Assembly (NCBI RefSeq): GCF_004402785.1
Contig: NZ_SOFP01000009.1
Location: 62,001 to 126,000, forward strand
From: Cryobacterium algoritolerans
GTDB lineage: Bacteria; Actinomycetota; Actinomycetes; Actinomycetales; Microbacteriaceae
Direction: 5' to 3'
Length of the DNA stretch: 64,000 nt
Shown here: piece after piece, positions 19,236-29,888 of the stretch
How positions within the stretch are numbered: position 1 is the stretch's first letter
Layout of the letters: each line of letters opens with the position of its first letter
The notes under the pieces: generated by a model
What the model saw: only the letters and a program-made list of their open reading frames with translations
Told to the model about the DNA's origin: nothing
The model's database searches: none
Made by a program: the position numbers and the translations under genes

Positions 19236-19312
19236 GGCGGGGTAGCTCAGTTGGTTAGAGCACACGGCTCATAATCGTGGTGTCGCGGGTTCAATTCCCG
19301 CTCCCGCTACCA
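19236..19312 (+). tRNA. tRNA-Met (anticodon CAT)
   Basis: The acceptor GGCGGGG pairs with TCCCGCT (two G-U pairs), the anticodon loop CTCATAA gives CAT, the T stem is GCGGG/CCCGC around TTCAATT, and CCA is encoded. The weak first acceptor pair is G-U rather than the C-A mismatch of an initiator, so elongator is favoured. Its 3' part is duplicated at 27991-28017, marking the site of the neighbouring island. Confidence 0.93.
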
Positions 19313-19320
19313 GAACATAC

Positions 19321-19359
19321 GGCGAAGGCCCGGCATCCAGAGGATGCCGGGCCTTCGCC
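19321..19359. terminator. Long bidirectional terminator after tRNA-Met
   Basis: An 18-bp perfect stem (19321-19338 with 19342-19359, loop AGA; GGCGAAGGCCCGG arm). It ends the tRNA operon and, in the other direction, the leftward UbiB remnant and probably the nuo-like operon. Confidence 0.75.
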
Positions 19360-19363
19360 GCTC

Positions 19364-19435
19364 TCATTTTCTACTGCGTGTCACGATCGAGCCGACGAAC
19401 GCCGAGACCAGCAGAACAACGGATCCGGCGCCCTC
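19364..19435 (-). pseudogene. 3' fragment of a UbiB-family gene (last 22 codons)
   Basis: Reading leftward to the TGA at 19364-19366, the frame gives GAGSVVLLVSAFVGSIVTRS plus Arg-Lys. The intact UbiB gene at 28068 ends GTGSVVLLVSALVDSIVTRS plus Arg-Asn. The two are homologous but not identical, so this fragment is a diverged second copy of the gene end. Beyond 19435 similarity stops. It shows that the island arrived with, or was built from, DNA of the same locus in another lineage. Confidence 0.8.
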
Positions 19436-19525: not shown

Positions 19526-20956
19526 TCACCCGGAGAGCGGCATACCGAACGCGGCGAGCACGGGACCGGCGGCGATCCCGATGATGAGCACCGCAATCGC
19601 ACCGACGACAGCGGCCCGAGAAGCAGCTGGGTGTCGAGGCGCAGGTGCGCGAACATCCGTCTTACCCCGTGCGAACATCGGTGCGAGCCAGCGGAGGTAG
19701 TAGAACAGGCTCGCGACGGTGTTGATCGCCGCGACGACGACGAGCCAGGCTAGGCCGCCGTCCCATGCCGCGGTGAAGGTGGTGAGCTTGCCGACGAACA
19801 CAGCGGTCGGTGGGGTGCCGACGAGTCCGAGCAGGCTCACGAGGAGAGCTCCAGCGAGCCACGGGTGCGCTGCCGAGGCGCCGCGGTAGTCCTCGATCGA
19901 GCGGCGCGTCGGCAGTGCGGCGATGACCGCGAAGGCGGTGATGTTCGATGCCGTGTAGCCCGCGAGGTAGAGCAGTAGTGACGGCAGGGCGAGATCGGCA
20001 TTGCCCGCAACAGCGACGGGCAGCAGCAGATAGCCCACCTGGCTCACCGTCGACCAACCCAGCAGCCGCCGAACGTCAGTCTGCCAGAAGGCCGCGAGAT
20101 TGCCGAGGGTCATGCTCGCGGTGGCGAGGATGGCGACGAGCAGGGGCCAGTCGACAGCGCCTGGTTCAGCCCCGCGGGGAAGCAGCTCGAAGAAGCGATA
20201 CGCGGCGACGAGCGCACCCAACTTGGGAATCGACGTGAGGAACGCCGCGACCGCGGTCCCGGATGCCTGCGTCGCGTCGGGCACCCAGAAGTGGCCTGGT
20301 ACCCCGCCTGCCTTGAACATGAGCCCGGCCATTACCCCAAGGATTCCGGCGAGGACCGCCGCGGGCGGCGCGGTGCCGAGCGTCGATCGGAGTTCGGAGT
20401 AGGACGTGCTCCCGCCGATCCCGAACAGGATCGTGACGCCGAGCAGCAGCGCGATGCCCATGAGCGCGCCGATCAGGTAGGTCTTGAGGGCGGCCTCGGC
20501 CGCACCGGGCGACCTGCTCATTCCGACCAGGGCATAGAGCGGGACACTCGCGAGCAGATAGCCTGCGGCAAGCACCAGGAGATCGTTGGCTCCCGCCATC
20601 GCGATCGCACCGAGCGCGGAGAGCATCAGGAGAGAGTACGTCTCGCTCTCCCTGGGGCTCCCAGCGAGTTCCTCGGCGCCCAACGCGAGAACGAGGATCG
20701 TGGCGAGCGGGATGATGATCCGAACGGCCCCGGTCGCGACATCCACCGCGAGGCCGCCCTCGAAGATGGTCATCGCGGGGGCGGTCATGCCGATCGCTGC
20801 CGCCCCGGCGGCTAGCAGTAGGGCGGCGATTGCGAGAAACCGCGTCACCACCTGCTGATCGCGGGGAAGGAACGACCCCGAAAGCAGCACGATCACCGCA
20901 CCCGTCAGAACGAGGATCTCCGGCAGTAGCGCGAGGGTATCCCGTTGCATGTTCAC
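19526..20956 (-). CDS. nuoN: NuoN-like antiporter subunit of the reduced complex I-like operon
   Basis: 476 residues from GTG 20956 (ATG 20950 is the alternative), eight bases after nuoM. It has 13-14 predicted spans of the proton_antipo_M family. The key half-channel Lys is kept in FKAGGVPGHFWVPDATQ, matching the NuoN signature FKxGxxPFHxWxPD, with Gly replacing the usual Phe. A second conserved region reads TSIPKLGALVAAYR. It is the last gene of the leftward operon. In complex I, NuoN is the antiporter-like subunit nearest the quinone module; here that module is absent. Confidence 0.85.
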   Translation of the reverse strand: MNMQRDTLALLPEILVLTGAVIVLLSGSFLPRDQQVVTRFLAIAALLLAAGAAAIGMTAPAMTIFEGGLAVDVATGAVRIIIPLATILVLALGAEELAGSPRESETYSLLMLSALGAIAMAGANDLLVLAAGYLLASVPLYALVGMSRSPGAAEAALKTYLIGALMGIALLLGVTILFGIGGSTSYSELRSTLGTAPPAAVLAGILGVMAGLMFKAGGVPGHFWVPDATQASGTAVAAFLTSIPKLGALVAAYRFFELLPRGAEPGAVDWPLLVAILATASMTLGNLAAFWQTDVRRLLGWSTVSQVGYLLLPVAVAGNADLALPSLLLYLAGYTASNITAFAVIAALPTRRSIEDYRGASAAHPWLAGALLVSLLGLVGTPPTAVFVGKLTTFTAAWDGGLAWLVVVAAINTVASLFYYLRWLAPMFARGKTDVRAPAPRHPAASRAAVVGAIAVLIIGIAAGPVLAAFGMPLSG

Positions 20957-20963
20957 GAGGGCG

Positions 20964-22454
20964 CTACCTGCTGACGAGGTCGACGACGACGGATGACGCG
21001 GGCTCGACGACATCCAGCAGGAATCGCGGCACGATCCCGATGATCACGGCGAGGAGCAGGAGGGTTGCGATGGCAAGGATCTCCCACCGGTCGAGGTCGC
21101 GGAATCCGCGGGACAGTCCCCGTGTCTCGCCCGTGAGCATCCGTTGCAGGGCGCGCAGGAACAGCGCGGCAGTGATCAGAATGCCCGGGAGAGCGAGCGC
21201 GGTCCAGGGGACGGGCCCGATGCTGCCCGCGAAGATCTGGAACTCGGCGATGAAACCGCTGAAACCGGGGAGCCCGAGGGAGGCGAACGCCGCGACCGCG
21301 AAGAAGGCGGCGTAGCGCGGCGCCGGGGCCGCGAGTCCGCCGTAGGAGCCGATGTCGTAGCTGCCTGTGCGGTCAAAGAGCACCCCCGCGAGGAGAAAGA
21401 GGGCGCCCGTGATAAGCCCGTGGCTCACCATCTGCACGACGGCGCCGGTGATCGCGACCTCCCTCGCCTGAGCCGCGCTGTCGGTGACGACGCCCGCCGC
21501 GCCGACCGCGAGGATCACGTAGCCCATGTGATTGACCGAGGTGTAGGCGATCATCCGTTTGACGTCGGTCTGGGCGAGCGCGACGAGTGCTCCGTAGAGC
21601 ACCGAGATGATGCCGATCACGACGATGAGCCACGCCCATTCTCGCCAGGCGTCCGGCAGCAGGGGCATGGCGATGCGAACGAAACCGTAGGTGCCCATCT
21701 TGAGCATGATGCTCGCCAGCACGACCGAACCGATCGCCGGAGCATCCGTGTGGGCGGGCGGCAGCCAGGTGTGGAACGGAAAGGTCGGCGTCTTGATCGC
21801 GAGCCCGATGAAGACAGCGGCGAGCACGAGGCCGCCGATGACCGGCTCGTCGCCGAAGGGAGGGGATGCCGCGAGCAGGGCCATGTCGAAGGTCTTCGCC
21901 GCCGAACCCAGGTAGAGGCCGATGAACCCCACGAGCAGCGCCAGCGAGCCGAGGAAGGTGTAGAGGAAGAACTTCAGTGCCGACCGGGCCGCGTTGCCGT
22001 GCCCCCAACCGGCGATCACGAAGTACATGCCGACGATCGAGAGGTCGAAGAACACGAAGAAGAGGATGAGGTCCTGCGCCGCGAAGACACCGAGGCTCGA
22101 CGTCTGGAGGAAGAGGAAGAGGGCAGCCTGCGAGCGGGGCCGGTCGGTGTGGCGTAGCGCGAAGACGGCGCAGACGACGAAGATGAGCGAGGTGAGCGCG
22201 ACGAGCGGCAGCGACAGGCCGTCTACGCCGAGGTGATAGGTGCTGCCGACGTTCGGGATCCACGGCAGCTGCTCCTCGAAGGCCAGGTTCCCCGCACCCG
22301 GGTCGCGGTAGGCCAGCCACATGCCGACCACCAGGACGAGGTCGAGGAGCGTGACGACAAGCCAGATCCAGCGGGCCGCGGCATCCGTGATGCGGGGCAT
22401 CGCTGCGAGCACGATCGCGGCGAGCACGGGGAGGAAGACGACAAGGCTGAGCAT
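20964..22454 (-). CDS. nuoM: NuoM-like antiporter subunit with Glu-to-Asp change
   Basis: A 496-residue, about 14-span protein. The half-channel Lys221 is kept in GLAIKTPTFPFHTWLPPAHT, whose family form is AIKxPxFPFHTWLPDAHTEAP. The essential TM5 Glu (FFxFFE...PMYF in most NuoM) is Asp137 here: LFFVFFDLSIVGMYFVIAGW. The usual LPDAHTEAP has become LPPAHTDAP. The acid is thus conserved in charge but shortened, which may alter coupling. It lies between nuoL and nuoN with short gaps, in canonical order. Confidence 0.88.
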   Translation of the reverse strand: MLSLVVFLPVLAAIVLAAMPRITDAAARWIWLVVTLLDLVLVVGMWLAYRDPGAGNLAFEEQLPWIPNVGSTYHLGVDGLSLPLVALTSLIFVVCAVFALRHTDRPRSQAALFLFLQTSSLGVFAAQDLILFFVFFDLSIVGMYFVIAGWGHGNAARSALKFFLYTFLGSLALLVGFIGLYLGSAAKTFDMALLAASPPFGDEPVIGGLVLAAVFIGLAIKTPTFPFHTWLPPAHTDAPAIGSVVLASIMLKMGTYGFVRIAMPLLPDAWREWAWLIVVIGIISVLYGALVALAQTDVKRMIAYTSVNHMGYVILAVGAAGVVTDSAAQAREVAITGAVVQMVSHGLITGALFLLAGVLFDRTGSYDIGSYGGLAAPAPRYAAFFAVAAFASLGLPGFSGFIAEFQIFAGSIGPVPWTALALPGILITAALFLRALQRMLTGETRGLSRGFRDLDRWEILAIATLLLLAVIIGIVPRFLLDVVEPASSVVVDLVSR

Positions 22455-22457
22455 GGG

Positions 22458-24389
22458 TTACCTCACGAGAAGGATCAGGACGAAGACGGCCGCGACGGCG
22501 ATCGCGATCTGGGCGTAGTACTGGTGGATCTGGCCGGTCTGGGGGCGCCTCGCCAGCGTGCCGAGGCGTCGCAGCTGCCGCGCGAGGCCCTCGACGGCGC
22601 CATCGACGCCCCGGTCGTCGGCGCGCGCCGCGCGCGAACCCGCGAAAGTGCCGGCTCGCGCCGTCGCCTCGACAGCGGCGTCGAGCCGGACGTCGTCGAA
22701 CCGCCCGAGCCGACGTGCGCCGGTAACGCCGCCGCGCGCCAGCCGATGTAGGCCACGGTCGAGGATGCCATCGTCGAATCTTGCGAGCGACTCGCTGAGC
22801 GCGAGCGTCGGTCGAACGAGGACGAGGTGGACGGCCTTCTCCAAACCCAGCCAGTTCGCCGCCCAGGCCGGCTGCGGCAGACCTCTTCGGAGCCCGAACG
22901 CGACGAGGGCGAGCACCGCGAGCGCGAGCACCGCCGAACCGACGAGCTCGAGCATGCCAGGTGTCGCGGTGCCGGTCTCCCCGAGCATCGCCTTCAGCGG
23001 CTGGCTCACCGGGGGCAGCGCCAGGATTCCGAGTAGTGCCGCGCCGGCCGCGAGCGCGATGAGCGGGATGCGTTCCCACCGGCCGATGCGCCGTGTGCCG
23101 GGCTGCTCGGCGTCGTAACCAGCTTCGGTCGCGGCATCCGCTCTCCCCCAGACGAGGAAGAGCACCTTGCCGGAGTAGATCGCGGAGAGCGCCGCCGCGG
23201 TGAGGCCCACGATGTACAACACGGGGTTTGTCTTCAGGGCGACGGCAAGCAGTTCGTCTTTGAGCGCCCAGAGCGACAGCGGCGCGACACCGGCGAGCGA
23301 CAGCGTGCCGACAGTGAACAGCACGCCGACGAGCGGCCACCGCCGAGCGGCGCCGCGGAGCGCCGAAAGCTGTTTGGTGCCGAGGGCGGCGAGCCACGCG
23401 CCCGCGACGAGGAAGAGCAGCGCCTTGGTGGAGGCGTGCGCGACGAGATAGCCCGCACCGCCCGCGATCGATCCGACCCCCGCGGCGAGCACGACGAAGC
23501 CCATTTGGGCCGCGGTCGACGCCGCGAGCAGCTGCTTGAGGTCGCGTTGAGCCACCGCAACCGCTCCGAGCAAGAGCGCGGTGATTGCTCCGATCCACGC
23601 CACGGTCATAGCCGCCCAGCTCGTCGCCTCCAACAGCGGTGCCACGCGGAGGAGCAAGTATCCGCCCATCGCAACCATCGCGGCCGAGTGCAGCAGCGCA
23701 CTGACCGTGCTCGGACCTTCCATCGCGCGTGACAGCCAGGAGCTGAACGGTAGTTGCGCGGCCTTGCCGAGGGCGGCGGTGATGATGCCGGCAGCGATGA
23801 CGTCTCGCCAGGGCGAGGATGCGGCGGACAGGTCGGCGAGCTCCGGCCCTGCACCGCCGATCAGGGCGGCGCCCGCGGCGAGGTAGAGGCCGAGATCGCC
23901 CGCCCTTGTCATAGTGAAGGCGACGAGTCCCGCCTGCACCCGCCGGTCATCCCGCCATTGGAAGCCGATCAGCGCCCAGGACATGGCCCCCATGATCTCC
24001 CAAGCGAACAACAGTGTCGGGAGCGTCGTCGCGGTCACGGTCACCGCGACGGCGGCGGCGAAGACCAGCATGAGGCCGTGAAAGCGTTCCGGTGACTCCG
24101 TTTCCTCAGTGGCCGCAAAGCCCAGCACGAGTAGGGTCACGATCGCGACGGCGGGAAGCACCAAGGCGGAGAGCCCGTCGACAGCCAGCCCAATCGGCGC
24201 GCCGGCGATGAAGGGCATCTCCAGTACGGGGCGGGTGACGGTGACGACCACGGCGAGCGCGGCTGTGACCGTCGCGGCCGTGAGCGAGACCGGGATCGCG
24301 GCTGCGCGTGCACGTGGCCCGACGAGGCAGAGCGAGATTCCGGATGCCGCGGGCAGCAGCACCAGGAGAGCGAGGTAGAGCCCGCTCAT
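22458..24389 (-). CDS. nuoL: NuoL-like antiporter subunit with repeated C-terminal arm
   Basis: Start ATG 24389 overlaps the nuoK stop (ATGA) and gives 643 residues. TM5 Glu is kept (LLFAWEIMGAMSWALIGF) and TM7 Lys is kept (AALGKAAQLPFSSWLSRAME). The C-terminus ends as in NuoL (VDGAVEGLARQLRRLGTLAR, then QTGQIHQYYAQIAI and a final span), consistent with the lateral helix that straps the membrane arm. The lateral part contains three related blocks: LARFDDGILDRGLHRLARG, LGRFDDVRLDAAVEATARA and RADDRGVDGAVEGLARQ. Confidence 0.88.
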   Translation of the reverse strand: MSGLYLALLVLLPAASGISLCLVGPRARAAAIPVSLTAATVTAALAVVVTVTRPVLEMPFIAGAPIGLAVDGLSALVLPAVAIVTLLVLGFAATEETESPERFHGLMLVFAAAVAVTVTATTLPTLLFAWEIMGAMSWALIGFQWRDDRRVQAGLVAFTMTRAGDLGLYLAAGAALIGGAGPELADLSAASSPWRDVIAAGIITAALGKAAQLPFSSWLSRAMEGPSTVSALLHSAAMVAMGGYLLLRVAPLLEATSWAAMTVAWIGAITALLLGAVAVAQRDLKQLLAASTAAQMGFVVLAAGVGSIAGGAGYLVAHASTKALLFLVAGAWLAALGTKQLSALRGAARRWPLVGVLFTVGTLSLAGVAPLSLWALKDELLAVALKTNPVLYIVGLTAAALSAIYSGKVLFLVWGRADAATEAGYDAEQPGTRRIGRWERIPLIALAAGAALLGILALPPVSQPLKAMLGETGTATPGMLELVGSAVLALAVLALVAFGLRRGLPQPAWAANWLGLEKAVHLVLVRPTLALSESLARFDDGILDRGLHRLARGGVTGARRLGRFDDVRLDAAVEATARAGTFAGSRAARADDRGVDGAVEGLARQLRRLGTLARRPQTGQIHQYYAQIAIAVAAVFVLILLVR

Positions 24390-24688
24390 CCGGAGAGGTC
24401 CGTCGCCGAGTCGGTCATGTCTGATCCGCGGGAACGGTGCAGAAGGGTGGCGACGGCGAAGCCCATCGCCATCTCCACCGTCATCGCGGCAATGACGATG
24501 AGCAGCAGCACCTGGCCGTCCGGGGCGGGCGCGAGGAACCACCAGAAGGCGCCGACGGCGAGGATGACCCCGTTCAGCATGAGTTCCAGCCCCATCATGA
24601 CCATCACGATGACCTGTTGAGAGAGGGCGCCGTACAGGCCCACGCTGAAGAGTGCGGCCGCGACCAGAAGAACGGCTTGGAGTGTCAT
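24386..24688 (-). CDS. nuoK: NuoK-like subunit
   Basis: A 100-residue, three-span protein. Both membrane acids needed for proton transfer are present: Glu34 in MGLELMLNGV and Glu71 in MTVEMAMGFAVA. The loop before span 3 keeps DGQVLLL. Its ATG overlaps the nuoJ stop (ATGA) and its stop overlaps the nuoL start (ATGA). The strong conservation argues that ion translocation is still under selection. Confidence 0.88.
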   Translation of the reverse strand: MTLQAVLLVAAALFSVGLYGALSQQVIVMVMMGLELMLNGVILAVGAFWWFLAPAPDGQVLLLIVIAAMTVEMAMGFAVATLLHRSRGSDMTDSATDLSG

Positions 24689-25248
24689 CGGCCGAGCCCT
24701 CCCCGCATCGGATCGGTCGGCGGTCGGCGTTTCAGGTCGTCGCCCCAGCGGTCATAACGCCCGCGCGGGTTGGCGATCACAAGCCCGGCAATGATCGTGG
24801 CGAACAGCACGGGGCTGATGGTGAGCATCGCGAGCATCTTGGGCCCCATGATCGCGTGCCCGAGCGAGGCGGTGAGGTCAGCCGCGGGTGCACCGACGCG
24901 GGCGGGCCACGGGATGAGCAGCGCTCCCGCGGCCAGCAGCACGAAGGTTCCCACCGCCAGAACCGCCGACCCGCGTTTGTTGTGGGTCATGTCCATCGGC
25001 ATGAGGGCCGGATTCATTCCCATATACATCACCATGTATACGACCATGATCGCCATCTCCATGACCATCATGAGAATCGTGATGATGCCGATGTACTCGA
25101 GGCCGACTATCACGAGCATGATTCCGACGGCGATGAACGAGATCGCGAGCGCGTAGGTTGCCCGTGCCATGGAGTCGACCGCGAAGACGGTGGCACCGGA
25201 TGCAACGGCCACGACCGCGAGCGCCCAGAACAGGATGTCGATCAGCAT
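24685..25248 (-). CDS. nuoJ: NuoJ-like subunit with a Met-rich segment
   Basis: 187 residues from ATG 25248, two bases after the nuoH stop, with GGGGAG in the end of nuoH as ribosome site. Five spans are predicted. The third span and following loop (residues 60-87) hold twelve Met residues in 28, including EMAIMVVYMVMYMGMNP and MPMDMTHNK, replacing the usual QIIVYVGAIMVLFLFVVMM type sequence of NuoJ. TM3 of NuoJ is the helix that switches between alpha and pi forms in complex I. Met clusters of this kind can bind Cu(I), but that is only an inference. Confidence 0.82.
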   Translation of the reverse strand: MLIDILFWALAVVAVASGATVFAVDSMARATYALAISFIAVGIMLVIVGLEYIGIITILMMVMEMAIMVVYMVMYMGMNPALMPMDMTHNKRGSAVLAVGTFVLLAAGALLIPWPARVGAPAADLTASLGHAIMGPKMLAMLTISPVLFATIIAGLVIANPRGRYDRWGDDLKRRPPTDPMRGGLGR

Positions 25249-25250
25249 CC

Positions 25251-26186
25251 TCAGCTCCCCACGACGATGATCGCAACGACGAGTACCTGCAGGAGCGCCG
25301 CAGGCAACACGATGATCCAGGCCACCTCGGCGAACCGGTCTGGGCGGATCGTCGGCACCCGGTGACGGATCGCGACGAACGTAGCCAGCACGAGCGCAGT
25401 CTTGCCGAGCGTCCAGAGCCAGTCGGGCAGCAGCGGACCGCCTCCGCCGCCGAGGAAGAGCGGCACGGCGAACGCGGCACCCGCGGTGAGCACCGCGTAG
25501 CGGCCGGTGAGGATGAGCAGTCGGTCGACGCCCGAGACATCGGTGAGGAAACCGCCGGCAATGTCCCGCCCGACCGCGGTGGCGTATGGTCCCCAACTCG
25601 AGAAGGCGATGACGCTGCCGCAGAAGATGACGAAGGCGACCGGCATCCAGATCACGAACCACAGGTTCTGCTGGGCCGCGACCACGTCTCCGACCCGGAG
25701 GCTACGCGCGGCGACCGCCGGCGTGATCAGCGCGAACATCAGCGGCAGTTCATACGAGACGGCGAGCGAGAGGAAACGGTAGCCCCCCACGAGCGCGTGC
25801 GCGCTGTTCGCCCCCCAGCCGATGAGCCAGAACAGCGCCCAGATCATGACGTCCATCGTGTTGAACCAGACGACGCCCACGTCGAGGTCGGCGAGGGTCC
25901 ACGGCCCGAGCGGAATGACCAGGATCTTCAGAATAGCGACGACCACGAGGCCGCCGGCACCGATCCGCCACAGCAGCACATCGGCCGCGACGGTGACCTG
26001 TCGTCGCTGTCTCAGCAGCCGGGCCACCTGGGCGAGCGGGGCACTCGCTCCGGAGCGGAACGGGCGCCCGACCGAGCGGGCCACGAGAGCCCCGTTCAGC
26101 CCGGCGCCCGCGAGCGCGAACAGCAGGAGGGCCAGCGGCGCCAGAACTGCCCATGCCGGGCTGACCTGCACGATGGGCTCAGTCAT
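25251..26186 (-). CDS. nuoH: NuoH-like subunit lacking the quinone-chamber acidic motif
   Basis: Start ATG 26186 overlaps the preceding stop by eight bases; 311 residues, 8 spans. The family segment VSYELPLMFALITPAV is intact, and WTLGKTALVLATFVAIRHRVP matches the conserved Lys/Arg helix. The cytoplasmic loop that in NuoH reads like PFDLPEAExELVAGFxxEYSG is replaced by AFSSWGPYATAVGRDIAGGF and LTDVSGVDR. The Glu residues lining the quinone-reactive chamber are therefore missing, which fits the absence of NuoB, NuoD and NuoI from the operon. Confidence 0.83.
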   Translation of the reverse strand: MTEPIVQVSPAWAVLAPLALLLFALAGAGLNGALVARSVGRPFRSGASAPLAQVARLLRQRRQVTVAADVLLWRIGAGGLVVVAILKILVIPLGPWTLADLDVGVVWFNTMDVMIWALFWLIGWGANSAHALVGGYRFLSLAVSYELPLMFALITPAVAARSLRVGDVVAAQQNLWFVIWMPVAFVIFCGSVIAFSSWGPYATAVGRDIAGGFLTDVSGVDRLLILTGRYAVLTAGAAFAVPLFLGGGGGPLLPDWLWTLGKTALVLATFVAIRHRVPTIRPDRFAEVAWIIVLPAALLQVLVVAIIVVGS

Positions 26187-27369
26187 GAGTGCGTTCGTGC
26201 GTTTGGGCGAGTGCGGCGGTGTCGAGACCGAGGCCGGCAATGAGCAGGCGAGCCGTTCCGAGATCCGTTCCACGGAGCAGTTCCGGCAGGGCTTCGAGCG
26301 CGTCCTGCGCCTCCCGTACCGGGTCGGAGTCGCCCGCTGCGGGCGATTGCCTCCCAGAGGACGTTCCGGCCAGGACCGCAGCCTCCCGCAGCCAGCCGAT
26401 CAGGCGATGACGGATGTCGACGGCCGCTTGGTCATCCGGAGTCGCGGTACCCGTGTTCGTGCCTGCGCCCAGGCCGATCTCTCCGAGCGAGATCCCCTTG
26501 AGCGACCACCGCAGCAGCACGGAGCGCTCGGCGCGTCGGCGCAGCCGATCGAGTGCCGCGGCGTGATCGGTGCTGTCCGCTCCCCGACGTGCGTCATCGC
26601 GCAACCGGCGTGCGTTCTGCGCGGCGGTCTGCCATCCGGCGAGCGCGAGCAGGTTCGAGGCGTCATCGCAGAGTCGGATGATGCGCCTACGTCCACGCGT
26701 GACATCCGTCACCGCTTTCTCCGACACCTCCTTCGGTGCCGACGCCGCCTCGAGCAATCGGGCCCCAGCGCTCACGATCACGTCGCCCTGCAGCACGCAA
26801 TCCACCACGAGGCCGGCCGGCCAGTGGGGCAGGACCGGGCCGAGCGAAACGTTCAGAACGTCCATCTCGAGTCCGTCGCGGTCGTCGCCTCCGCCGGCGA
26901 GTGGGATGCCGCCGGGAGTCGGCATGTCCATGCCGCCGTGGTCCATGTCCCCGTGGTCCATGTCCTCGTGCGACATGCTTTCGTGCTCGCCGGTGTTAGG
27001 TCTCGGATCCTCGGCAGCAACGGGCCGAGACCTCGCCCGTGCGTCCTCGCGCTGCCAGGAATCATCGACGAGATGCGCCACAGCGGCATCGAGCAGTGCC
27101 GACAGCGCGACCGGGGTGGTCACGCTCACACGGGTTCGTGGTCCGGGCAGCTGATTCCACAGGAGATCGGATGCCGCTCCGAGTACTTCGCCCGGCAACC
27201 CGCACACGGCGAGCAGGTCGGCGTCGGCCGGCGAGAGCGCGACTCTCCAGCCACGCCGGTCCAGCTCGGCCTCGAGCAGCATCCGCGATTCGTCCCAGCC
27301 CGGCACTCCCACGATGAGAACATGCACGCTCTTGGAGGCCCACCGGGCGAGCATTGAGGTCACACCCAT
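26179..27369 (-). CDS. Degenerate NuoB/NuoD-like fusion with Met/His-rich linker
   Basis: 396 residues from ATG 27369, which overlaps the nuoA stop by 10 bp. Residues 14-90 look like a stripped NuoB: VHVLIVGVPGWDESRMLL, then ADADLLAVCGLPGEVLGAAS and LWNQLPGPRTRVSVTTP resemble NuoB's ADVMIVAGT...MPEPKWVIS, but the four cluster-N2 cysteines are absent. Residues 128-149 are Met/His-rich (SMSHEDMDHGDMDHGGMDMP). Residues 165-205 (LEMDVLNVSLGPVLPHWPAG, then LVVDCVLQGDVIVSAG) resemble the N-terminal sheet of NuoD/49-kDa without its quinone-binding His/Tyr regions. The rest is helical. It is the only soluble-looking gene in the operon and sits where the redox subunits would be. The homology is judged by eye and moderate. 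Confidence 0.65.
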   Translation of the reverse strand: MGVTSMLARWASKSVHVLIVGVPGWDESRMLLEAELDRRGWRVALSPADADLLAVCGLPGEVLGAASDLLWNQLPGPRTRVSVTTPVALSALLDAAVAHLVDDSWQREDARARSRPVAAEDPRPNTGEHESMSHEDMDHGDMDHGGMDMPTPGGIPLAGGGDDRDGLEMDVLNVSLGPVLPHWPAGLVVDCVLQGDVIVSAGARLLEAASAPKEVSEKAVTDVTRGRRRIIRLCDDASNLLALAGWQTAAQNARRLRDDARRGADSTDHAAALDRLRRRAERSVLLRWSLKGISLGEIGLGAGTNTGTATPDDQAAVDIRHRLIGWLREAAVLAGTSSGRQSPAAGDSDPVREAQDALEALPELLRGTDLGTARLLIAGLGLDTAALAQTHERTHD

Positions 27370-27710
27370 CTCAGCGATCCTTCTCGCCAGGCCCAGACGA
27401 CGCCCACCATGAGCAGCCCGAGGAAGACGAACATCTCGACGATCGCGTTGGGACCCTCGCTCGCCACGACGACCGCCCAGGGGTACATGAACAACATCTC
27501 GACGTCGAAGGCGAGGAAGATGATGGTGAGCGGATACCAGCGGGCGTGGAACCGGGAGAGCGCGTGCTCCTGCGGCATCCACCCGGACAGATAGGGTGTG
27601 GTCGTAAGCGGCTCCGGGGACACCGACGTTGCCCGCGCGACGAGGTAGAGCAGGCCGATTCCGGCCAGCGCCATGCCGAGGATGACTGCGACGCTGACGT
27701 ATGCCGACAT
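27360..27710 (-). CDS. nuoA: NuoA-like subunit lacking the signature cysteine
   Basis: 116 residues, three spans. The conserved acidic turn FDVEMLFMYPWAV (family FDxExxFLxPW) is present. The TM1-2 loop, normally YECGxxP, is YLSGWMP here, so the Cys that marks the quinone-site loop is Ser42. ATG 27710 has a strong AGGAGGTCGA site. It is the first gene of the eight-gene operon (27710 down to 19526). Confidence 0.85.
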   Translation of the reverse strand: MSAYVSVAVILGMALAGIGLLYLVARATSVSPEPLTTTPYLSGWMPQEHALSRFHARWYPLTIIFLAFDVEMLFMYPWAVVVASEGPNAIVEMFVFLGLLMVGVVWAWREGSLRWV

Positions 27711-27990: not shown

Positions 27991-28137
27991 TGTCGCCAAT
28001 CCCGCTCCCGCTACCAGAACGTACGACGAAGGCCCGGCATCCAGAGGATGCCGGGCCTTTCTCGTTGTCAGTTGCGACTGCGGGTCACGATCGAGTCGAC
28101 TAACGCCGAGACCAGCAGAACAACGGATCCGGTGCCC
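27991..28137. repeat. Right flanking direct repeat of the nuo-like island
   Basis: Contains a decayed tRNA-Met 3' end (TGTCGC, CAAT, then the exact block from 28000), the same terminator palindrome (28029-28059) and the end of the intact UbiB gene. It aligns with 19281-19435. Here the tRNA part has lost bases inside the T arm, so this copy is not a functional tRNA. Confidence 0.75.
28029..28059. terminator. Terminator after the UbiB-family gene
   Basis: AAGGCCCGGCATCC pairs perfectly with GGATGCCGGGCCTT around an AGA loop, nine bases past the stop of the leftward gene; AA/TT tracts lie at both edges, so it can act in both directions. Confidence 0.7.
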
Positions 28138-29888
28138 AGGCTGAACCCGGCCGTCACCGTGCTGATGACCCCCGGATCCGCCGGCGCCGGCGTGGTCAGG
28201 TAGACGAGCGACATCACCCCGGCCGTGGCGCCGACCACTGCGAGGAGGCTCTGCCTGACCAGGCCCGTGAGAAGGCGCCGGTCGGACGTGTCCGCAAGCA
28301 GCCGTACGTTGACGTTCAACTTGCCGGTCTCAAGAGCGAGCCCGATCTGGTCGACTCGCCGGGGAAGGCGCCGCACGCTCGGGAGCAGGGCCAACAGCTC
28401 GGTGGTCAGGAGTTCGCGCACGTTGGCGGGTGCCATCTGGTCCCGGATCTGCGCGCCGGCCAGCTTCCGGGATTCCTCGAGCAGGTCGAACTCGGGCATC
28501 GTGCTCCGCAGGGTGCCCTCGAGCACGGCGAACGCCCGCGCCGCCGCCACGAACTCGGCGGGGATCCCCACCCCGTAGCGCGTGAGGATGGCGACCAGGA
28601 CATCCACGGTGAGCACGCTGACGCGCGCGCCCGGCCCCAGCTCGAAGGTCATGAACGCGCTCAGCTCCCGGCGGAAGGCCTTCTCGTCCACCCCCTCACG
28701 CAGGGGCGCCAGGGCCAGCAGACCATCGGCGATGAGCTGCGTGTCCGACTGGAGGTAGGCGATCAGCAGTTCCTGGATCGTCTCCCGCAGCTGCAGGTCG
28801 AGCCGGCCCACCGAACCGAAATCGACCAGGGCGGGGGTACCGTCCGCCAGCAGCATGATATTGCCCGGGTGCAGGTCCGCGTGGAAGACGCCGTCGAATA
28901 CGATCTGGCGCACGAAGGCGCTCAGCACGATGCGCATGGCCTCGCCGAGATCGACCCGGGGCGCACCCGGCATGGTGTTCAGCGCACTGAACGTCTCGCC
29001 TTCGAGATACCCCATGACCAGCACCCGGTCAGTGGACAGGGCCTCGAACAGTGCGGGAAAGCGCAGTTCGCCGGGACGCGGCCCCCTGGACTGCAGCGCG
29101 CGCATGGCCTGGAGGTTACGCGCCTCCAGCCGGAAATCGAGCTGACGCACGAGGTCGGCCGCGTAGTCCTCGGCAACGGCCCTGACGCCGAGGACCCGCG
29201 CCTGCGGGGACGTGAGGCTGAGCACGTTCGTCACCCGCAGGGCGATGGCGACGTCGCGCCGCAACTCAGGGACGATGCCGGGGCGCTGCACCTTGACAGC
29301 CACGACGGTGCCGTTCGTCAGGGTCGCCCGGTGCACCTGGCCGATGGATGCCGCGGCGATCGGCTCGGGGTCGAAGGCGGAGAAGATGCCGGCGAGGGGT
29401 CCGCCGAACTCGACCTCGAGCATCCTCTCGACGGCGTCCCACGGGGCCGGTTTCACGCTGTGCTGCAGCCGGGACAGGGCTGTGACGAATTCGGCGGGGA
29501 GGAAGTCCGACCGGGTTGAGAGCAGCTGTCCCATCTTGACGAAGGCTCCGCCGGCTTCCTCCAACGCCCGCCGCAGACCCTCGGCCTGCACCGCGCGAAC
29601 GGATGCCCCACTCGGGTTCGTCGAGAAATCGAGCCTGCGGATCGGCAGCAGCCCGTTCTTCCGGGCGATTCGCACGAGCTCGGCGAAGCGCCAGCCGCGT
29701 TGCAGGAGGGGCCGCGGGGGAGCCGGGCGGCTCCGCTCCGCGGCCAGCGTCAGTTTCGGAACAGTGATTCCCCGTGCGCCGTCCACCGTGTCAACTCTCG
29801 TGTCGTCCATCGTGATCCGCGTGCCCGCGGTCCACCCATCCGTCGCCGTGCGTACCCGGCCGGGAGGCACGAGACCGAACACCAGCAT
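28068..29888 (-). CDS. UbiB/ABC1/AarF-family atypical kinase
   Basis: Up to 606 residues. Family motifs are present: the KxGQ motif in AFVKMGQLLSTRSDFLP, the Ala-rich loop AAASIGQVHRA, the VAIK-like VAVKVQRPG, the catalytic DGVFHADLHPGN and the metal-binding LVDFGSVG. Two hydrophobic helices close the C-terminus. These proteins bind ATP and support isoprenoid quinone biosynthesis or lipid handling at the membrane. The start is unclear: ATG 29888 is the longest and ATG 29810 removes 26 unconserved residues; neither has a clear ribosome site. A diverged copy of its last 22 codons lies at 19364-19435. Confidence 0.82.
   Translation of the reverse strand: MLVFGLVPPGRVRTATDGWTAGTRITMDDTRVDTVDGARGITVPKLTLAAERSRPAPPRPLLQRGWRFAELVRIARKNGLLPIRRLDFSTNPSGASVRAVQAEGLRRALEEAGGAFVKMGQLLSTRSDFLPAEFVTALSRLQHSVKPAPWDAVERMLEVEFGGPLAGIFSAFDPEPIAAASIGQVHRATLTNGTVVAVKVQRPGIVPELRRDVAIALRVTNVLSLTSPQARVLGVRAVAEDYAADLVRQLDFRLEARNLQAMRALQSRGPRPGELRFPALFEALSTDRVLVMGYLEGETFSALNTMPGAPRVDLGEAMRIVLSAFVRQIVFDGVFHADLHPGNIMLLADGTPALVDFGSVGRLDLQLRETIQELLIAYLQSDTQLIADGLLALAPLREGVDEKAFRRELSAFMTFELGPGARVSVLTVDVLVAILTRYGVGIPAEFVAAARAFAVLEGTLRSTMPEFDLLEESRKLAGAQIRDQMAPANVRELLTTELLALLPSVRRLPRRVDQIGLALETGKLNVNVRLLADTSDRRLLTGLVRQSLLAVVGATAGVMSLVYLTTPAPADPGVISTVTAGFSLGTGSVVLLVSALVDSIVTRSRN

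Follow-up and report, generated by a model that had tools for sequence, protein, structure and literature searches.

The operon and its genes

The window analysed here is a 64,000-nucleotide stretch of the genome of Cryobacterium algoritolerans (contig NZ_SOFP01000009.1, positions 62,001 to 126,000), and the system in question is an operon of eight minus-strand genes at 19526..27710, each touching or overlapping the next, which follows the order nuoA-X-H-J-K-L-M-N and contains no NADH module. A preliminary description, made from the sequence alone, had seen in it an eight-gene membrane arm resembling that of respiratory complex I, in canonical order and with no redox subunits. Open reading frames and Pfam bear out the gene content and order, since the homologues of NuoA, NuoH, NuoJ, NuoK, NuoL, NuoM and NuoN all score above cut-off (E 1.9e-9 to 1.2e-63). 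No gene for a C, E, F, G or I subunit was recognised by Pfam among the eight, and X of the window belongs to no Pfam family and to no useful NCBIfam family. The absence of redox subunits needs qualification: it stands for the NADH module, but not in full for NuoB and NuoD, of which X is a degenerate fusion.

Protein X

X (396 residues, 26179..27369, minus strand; the mechanically called frame of 467 residues is over-extended, the likely start being at 27369) is a degenerate, fused NuoB-NuoD, with a NuoB remnant at residues 42-78, a His/Met-rich linker at residues 129-150 (HESMSHEDMDHGDMDHGGMDMP, 26920..26985, minus strand) and a truncated, weakly matching NuoD remnant at residues 174-203 and 358-382. 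Its N-terminal part aligns with NuoB in hhalign (probability 93, E 3.5e-7, 35% identity over 37 columns), and a PDB profile search returned 43 distinct sequences at E<=10, of which 40 are NuoB, PSST or MbhJ by name or entry context, with NuoB (Nqo6) of T. thermophilus as the best match (E 1.8e-6); the remaining three are XPA, over another stretch of the protein. The C-terminal part gave weak hhalign matches to NuoD (E 0.083 and 0.12), colinear at the first strands and the last segment of the latter. Pfam found no useful family in 35 X proteins of the order, and the only route to a significant NuoD link is through 18 divergent X proteins from elsewhere in the phylum, which can be aligned along X of the window: Complex1_49kDa scored above cut-off in all 10 that were scanned (E 1.2e-7 to 4.1e-17), which settles the descent of X from NuoD. 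Seven of these 10 also contain the heavy-metal-binding domain PF19335 (best 2.1e-27).

What X has retained of its ancestors does not include their chemistry. The NuoB alignment spans only 37-49 residues, in hhalign and in the PDB search alike, and these lie between the ligand motifs; CPP is present in none of 53 X proteins, the sole CC (in L150) lies upstream of the likely start of that X, and X of the window has neither CxxC nor any 4Fe4S ligand motif. We take the absent cysteine motifs to be the NuoB ligands of the terminal 4Fe4S cluster. Likewise, the NuoD motif GPQHPSTHG, presumably part of the quinone pocket, is replaced by GPVLPHWPAG in the window and by GPLFPGLPGG in the branch carrying the heavy-metal domain, GPxHP being found in one of the 53 (L151).

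The two halves of X are separated by a variable stretch rich in His and Met, for which the Rubrobacter/Rhodobacterales branch has a CxMHP...CPxCGM domain instead. By a rough density threshold of 8 His or Met per 30 residues, X qualifies in 40 of 57 loci (7 of them with CxMHPE), and X or a His-rich NuoJ tail in 47, several members without a linker in X having a His tail on NuoJ instead; canonical NuoB scores 3-5 on this scale and canonical NuoD 5-8. Four loci (L055, L056, L072 and L080) were excluded from the X alignment (A2) and the X hidden Markov model for repeat expansion, N runs or a broken frame, and are included in the 57, some of their X being incomplete. In L055 and L056 the linker has grown into very long MDHSGMDHST-type repeats, which suggests length change driven by slippage. 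The preliminary description had pointed to the fusion protein as the possible partner that gives the membrane arm its energy input or regulation, and X is indeed the key partner.

The membrane arm

Three of the other seven proteins, NuoJ, NuoK and NuoA, have between them a set of methionines and histidines that their canonical counterparts do not have. In NuoJ (24685..25248, minus strand, recognised by Pfam), eleven methionines (M27, M60, M61, M65, M68, M72, M76, M78, M85, M87 and M138), together with H89 and E64, show no variation across the family sequences (73/73), which comprise 39 from loci of the order, 18 divergent, 14 from plasmids and 2 further ones, not all of them independent. In nine canonical NuoJ of these genomes, each of the methionine and histidine sites is occupied by another residue, in turn A, V, Y, V/I, L, V, V, V, V/T/I, T, V/F and R/K/T; position 64 is Ala in the three counted. 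In NuoK (24386..24688, minus strand, Pfam), M29 and M69 are family-specific, present in 73/73 as against 0/10 canonical sequences, and M31 is Ile in five Rhodobacterales sequences. In NuoA (116 residues, 27360..27710, minus strand, Oxidored_q4 E 5.1e-26), H55, M72 and M75 occur in 73/73 (57/57 plus 16/16 of the plasmid set), again against 0/10.

Proton relay residues are kept in NuoL, NuoM and NuoK, and mostly in NuoN. In NuoL (22458..24389, minus strand, Pfam), E131, K209, H234, K285 and K377 are retained wherever a letter is present, as are K221, K252, H345 and E404 (with one Asp) in NuoM (20964..22454, minus strand, TIGR01972 E 4.2e-147), in which position 137 has Asp for the canonical Glu in 48 of 53, the window included. 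NuoK retains E35 and E72 (Asp in 4/57), so the two glutamates named in the preliminary description are indeed conserved, with their numbers corrected from 34 and 71. In NuoN (19526..20956, minus strand, Pfam, with an alternative ATG at 20950), K245 and K390 are kept wherever a letter is present and K215 in 42/52, all three being present in the window, whilst position 134 is Leu (or Val or Phe) in 52/52, against Glu in the chloroplast subunit aligned with them, the comparison set containing no canonical NuoN. The earlier view that the ion path is conserved therefore stands for most residues (NuoL E131 and K209, NuoM K221, the NuoN lysines), NuoN of the window having Leu134. In NuoH (25251..26186, minus strand, NADHdh E 4.7e-43) the acidic loop is reduced but still partly there: position 229 has Arg for the canonical Glu in 56/57, the sequences of the order set have lost the canonical Asp at 202 (Ala202 in the window), which 11/18 divergent ones keep, and position 208 is acidic in 56/57 (Asp208 in the window).

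In a FastTree phylogeny of NuoM, one gene by one method, the 62 family members group together and away from 11 canonical or Hyf-like sequences, with local support of 0.945. Within it, a clade of nine with the heavy-metal domain and a clade of ten holding the members with a NuoJ tail (not all ten have it) both have support of 1.0.

Redox subunits elsewhere in the genomes

The possibility that the missing subunits are encoded elsewhere for use by the operon is rejected. The whole host genome (3.7 Mb, 87 contigs, completeness 100) was searched for three of the subunits, NuoB, NuoD and NuoF, and NuoF (PF01512) gave no match. NuoB (PF01058) and NuoD (PF00346) gave one match each, both on contig C77, in a cluster that is Hyf-like as labelled by eye from its open reading frames and has its own antiporter-like frame; from the gene order we infer that these two genes are part of another complex. 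The cluster (G000 contig C77, 18000-30577; L006, L001, L005) has a large-subunit frame without the NiFe CGxC pair, also judged by eye, and looks to be a second unusual complex of this genome.

A NuoD-family search of 37 genomes bearing the operon found no match in 24, weaker matches only in 3 and strong ones in 10. Nine of the ten strong neighbourhoods were fetched and all nine are separate canonical nuo clusters; two of the three weaker ones (those of G000 and G227) were viewed, and neither is such a cluster. As observations apart, L119 and L120 (G299 and G521) have strong Complex1_49kDa matches (E 8e-48 and 2e-45), near which phmmer found no nuo neighbour. The preliminary conclusion that the operon cannot work as an NADH or formate dehydrogenase is upheld.

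Distribution of the module

The same gene arrangement recurs in 38 further loci of the order, in 18 loci from other parts of the phylum and on plasmids. With three X proteins as queries (E<=0.001), matches were obtained in 21 of 299 genomes of the family and 48 of 396 of the order, some of these matches being linker-only or true NuoB. Among 43 loci inspected, the window included, 39 have the A-X-H-J-K-L-M-N order, counting one that ends at a contig end (L002) and three with a local frame break, stop or insertion (L050, L071 and L080); L049 and L050 are nearly identical. L083, also among the 43, is a canonical-type cluster. The remaining three of the 43, from one genus of the window's family (L058, L059 and L060), encode a short, linker-free X of about 280 residues and, behind it, a NuoH-like protein alone, possibly a reduced form of the module; CopA- and CsoR-type genes adjoin this pair. 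Six genomes of the order with pieces of X (G637, G433, G393, G419, G332 and G354) were left out of the long-region loci.

Across the phylum, a profile of 35 X sequences matched 173 of 396 genomes, many of the matches listed covering the NuoB segment only. All 18 of the longer matches that were fetched have the operon as far as their contigs reach (L148, L151, L155 and L158 being cut), so that the collection of same-order clusters proposed at the outset reveals a conserved module. Several candidates were not counted as X: a Bacillus locus (L004), whose match is confined to the His/Met linker, weak matches in G014, G022 and G086, and many matches over residues 43-83, which, where checked (G425), are a NuoB gene beside nuoA.

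The module is also carried on plasmids of Actinomycetota and of Alpha- and Gammaproteobacteria. X of the window matched 16 plasmid records, of which 12 were viewed, and eight of these have the whole operon annotated (with X in pieces in two); in a Pseudarthrobacter plasmid (H15) an IS3 element follows a shortened X, and three others (H11, H14 and H16) are partial, the partial annotations being on Ornithinimicrobium, Rhodococcus oxybenzonivorans and Streptomyces plasmids. A divergent X matched 37 records; among the 20 listed, 12 are annotated as heavy metal-binding domain-containing protein (Rubrobacter, Roseovarius, Sulfitobacter, Paracoccus, Nitratireductor and Thioclava) and the other 8 are hydrogenase or copper-ATPase matches. 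The whole operon is present in 8/8 Rubrobacter and Pseudomonadota plasmid regions viewed (X seems split in one), the Rubrobacter tropicus plasmid being the same locus as L157, and a NuoJ search added Halomonas and Acuticoccus to the carriers.

Copper genes near the operon

With CopA, HMA, CsoR, multicopper oxidase and DUF305 as queries (E<1e-8), at least one copper gene was found beside 25 of 37 operon loci, a count partly selected because the queries were picked from genes near the operon, and beside 11 of 18 divergent loci, on that account the fairer test. By comparison, a copper gene was found in one of 20 windows drawn at random from these genomes (Fisher p 3.7e-6 against the 25/37 and 2.9e-4 against the 11/18) and in none of nine canonical nuo loci (p 2.7e-4 against the 25/37). 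Heavy-metal or copper genes are also present in 6 of the 12 viewed actinobacterial plasmid matches and in 7 of the 8 Rubrobacter/Pseudomonadota regions. In Rubrobacter tropicus, genes for a heavy-metal ATPase, a CsoR-type regulator and a copper chaperone lead on the same strand into nuoA, as do heavy-metal ATPase and chaperone genes on Curtobacterium pC1a; one plasmid region has CueR, an ATPase, a copper oxidase and a cupredoxin as neighbours, another a CusA-type resistance-nodulation-division (RND) protein, a copper oxidase and CopB. On a Sulfitobacter dubius plasmid (L172, 6585-7808), a further proton-conducting transporter subunit stands by itself next to a heavy-metal P-type ATPase. The DUF305 genes of the host sit on contigs other than that of the window.

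Acquisition and selection

The operon of the window is bracketed by a direct repeat of 138 bp anchored at a tRNA-Met gene, the integration point (19236..19312, plus strand, by ARAGORN and Rfam). Copy 1 (19296..19433, plus strand) begins within the 3′ end of this gene and is 90% identical to copy 2 (28000..28137, plus strand), the first 17 bases of which occur exactly twice in the window. Copy 2 enters the 3′ end of an ABC1/UbiB-family kinase gene (28068-29888) that adjoins the island, and the repeat thus contains a duplicate of this end of the gene. None of the genes between the repeats was recognised as an integrase. In a genome of the same genus (G1070), the counterparts of the two flanks, up to 19310 on the left and from 28074 on the right, at about 81% identity, are only 342 bp apart, which is the empty site, and X was not found in any of the five other genomes of the genus that were tested. 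A metagenome-assembled genome labelled Cryobacterium (L002), perhaps congeneric with the window, has a close copy. The cassette is, by these sequence signs, an acquisition of the host, as the preliminary description had supposed.

Selection on the module is mostly purifying. The ratio of nonsynonymous to synonymous substitution rates (dN/dS) is 0.04-0.28 over eight genes between the window and L044, and 0.06-0.35 over six genes between the window and L002, X being the fastest-evolving gene by this measure. Near-identical pairs give unstable values: 1.2 for X (at very low dS) and 0.63 for NuoH in L066/L069, 0.55 for X and 0.50 for an interrupted NuoH in L067/L071, and, with repeat trouble, 0.52 for X in L055/L056.

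Discussion

The module is probably a metal pump and not a respiratory enzyme, and its link to metal handling is well supported by the comparisons made here; the preliminary suggestion of an unusual ion pump or antiporter was thus too general, since the metal signature and the copper neighbourhood of the relatives point to metal handling. We favour, with somewhat better than even confidence, an exporter driven by the proton-motive force, in which the complex I membrane arm and the fused NuoB/NuoD remnants would move a soft metal outwards, likeliest Cu(I) and possibly Ag(I). This preference comes from several features taken together: the redox motifs are lost, the input side has metal-binding parts, the methionines of the former E-channel are invariant, most of the proton relay is retained, and copper genes are frequent companions. 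Cu(I) in the cytosol, possibly delivered by chaperones of the CopZ type, would first bind the His/Met/Cys region of X, a protein that would sit at the former NuoB/NuoD interface and quinone chamber. The metal would then enter the former E-channel and pass along the methionines of the third transmembrane helix of NuoJ, of NuoK and of NuoA, with the new Glu64 of NuoJ, and inward movement of protons through the antiporter-like NuoL, NuoM and NuoN would drive it outwards. The cytosolic placement of X, transport as such, Cu(I) as substrate, direction and proton coupling are parts that we infer. The wider proposition, about evenly balanced in our judgement, is that of a new class of metal pump, with a redox-free form of complex I coupling, a NuoB-NuoD fusion bearing a heavy-metal-binding region and an E-channel turned into a thioether-lined Cu(I)/Ag(I) path, which would have spread on plasmids and a tRNA-anchored island over Actinomycetota and Pseudomonadota in the context of copper resistance.

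Several observations weigh against an exporter of this kind. The 64 kb of the window contain no copper gene of the searched kinds, 12 of the 37 and 7 of the 18 relatives have none in the stretch searched (7.7 to 21 kb), 6 of the 12 viewed actinobacterial plasmid matches are without heavy-metal or copper genes, and the count of 25 in 37 is partly selected by the choice of queries. In 10 of the 57 loci the His/Met threshold is reached neither by X nor through a His-rich tail on NuoJ, one of nine canonical NuoD also reaches the His/Met threshold, and the clustering of the methionines of the third NuoJ helix on one face is marginal (random p 0.05). As to X itself, the NuoD match of the window protein alone is not significant (E 0.083 and 0.12), Oxidored_q6 stays below cut-off in the 7 of 10 scanned divergent X that show it, and the AlphaFold model (three sequences) is poor, with a pLDDT confidence of 44.5, and was not used for fold search. 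Finally, metal-binding tails and Met-rich helices fit a sensor as well.

The last point leads to the main rival, a metal-gated or metal-sensing proton channel or pump, in which copper bound to the region of X and to the methionine cluster would switch proton flow through NuoL, NuoM and NuoN, no metal being carried; such a device might, for example, dump or protect the proton-motive force under metal stress. It draws on the same metal features and copper neighbourhood and on the same kept relay residues, but the invariant methionines extend along the third helix of NuoJ into NuoK and NuoA and form no single obvious site, and we consider it unlikely. An ordinary Mrp-like Na+/K+:H+ antiporter with incidental metal features is a good deal less probable still: the relay residues of NuoL and NuoM are conserved, and Mrp is itself a non-redox member of the complex I superfamily (PMC7419157 and PMC9568556), but the 73/73 methionine conservation, PF19335 in X and the copper neighbourhood would be left unexplained, and NuoH, NuoA and X are retained here. 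Scarcely different in its low probability is a copper importer feeding cuproenzymes such as multicopper oxidase and cupredoxins. Multicopper oxidases, DUF305 and cupredoxins are indeed among the neighbours; many others, however, serve efflux or the response to metals (heavy-metal P-type ATPases, CsoR- or CueR-type regulators, a CusA-type RND), and the metal-binding part would face the cytosol. A copper-driven redox machine, passing electrons from Cu(I) oxidation to quinone at the interface of X and NuoH, would suit the origin of X in a quinone-reducing core and the copper context, and yet looks very improbable with the cysteine motifs of NuoB gone, GPxHP left in a single X of 53, the acidic loop of NuoH reduced and Arg in place of Glu at its position 229 in all but one of 57 sequences. 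A functionless, decaying relic of complex I, which a truncated and fast-evolving X (the L066/L069 ratio included) and the broken copies (the IS3-bearing Pseudarthrobacter plasmid, the three partial plasmids, L050, L071 and L080) might suggest, can hardly be reconciled with open frames and invariant residues across phyla, plasmid carriage and the low dN/dS of the window against L044 and L002.

For complex I itself, it is under debate how chemistry where NuoB, NuoD and NuoH meet is coupled to the movement of ions far away. In a natural variant of it, with a metal-binding input apparently in place of quinone and Fe-S chemistry, coupling would stand apart from redox chemistry, and the E-channel and the antiporter steps could each be tested separately. 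The module may also be an unrecognised mobile component of copper resistance. On the plasmids viewed, its genes bear the annotation of NADH-quinone oxidoreductase subunits or of subunits of a proton-conducting transporter, which can mislead respiratory reconstructions. No report of this complex was found among the listed titles, abstract openings and passages to which the literature search extended.

Comparison with known systems

With complex I (NDH-1) the module shares homologous A, H, J, K, L, M and N subunits in canonical order and the relay residues of NuoL, NuoM and NuoK, and X derives from its NuoB and NuoD. It differs from complex I in having no C, E, F, G or I in the operon, an X without the NuoB cysteine motifs and nearly always without the quinone-pocket motif, a reduced acidic loop in NuoH, the methionine set of NuoJ, NuoK and NuoA, and a metal-binding insert in X. 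Group 4 [NiFe] hydrogenases and their relatives (Hyf, Mbh and Ehr) belong to the same superfamily and have a NuoB/NuoD-like core on a membrane arm; the operon, however, has no NuoC or NuoI partner, X of the window has no CxxC, neither a large subunit with the NiFe cysteine pairs nor a NuoI-type ferredoxin is found among the eight genes, and the Hyf-like cluster of the host, so labelled by eye, is separate, on C77.

Mrp antiporters are assembled from NuoL/M/N-like and NuoK/J-like subunits, and their gene set is not known to include homologues of NuoH, NuoA, NuoB or NuoD. Like them, the module is a non-redox assembly that would use the proton-motive force, and unlike them it keeps NuoH, NuoA and a NuoB-NuoD remnant, in a different gene set and with a metal signature. 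PF19335 occurs in Cu/Ag efflux proteins, namely P-type ATPases and CusB, with which the module has in common this domain, His/Met-rich tails and, in many relatives, the same genomic islands; it has, however, neither an ATPase nor an RND fold, and its energy would come via a membrane arm of the complex I type.

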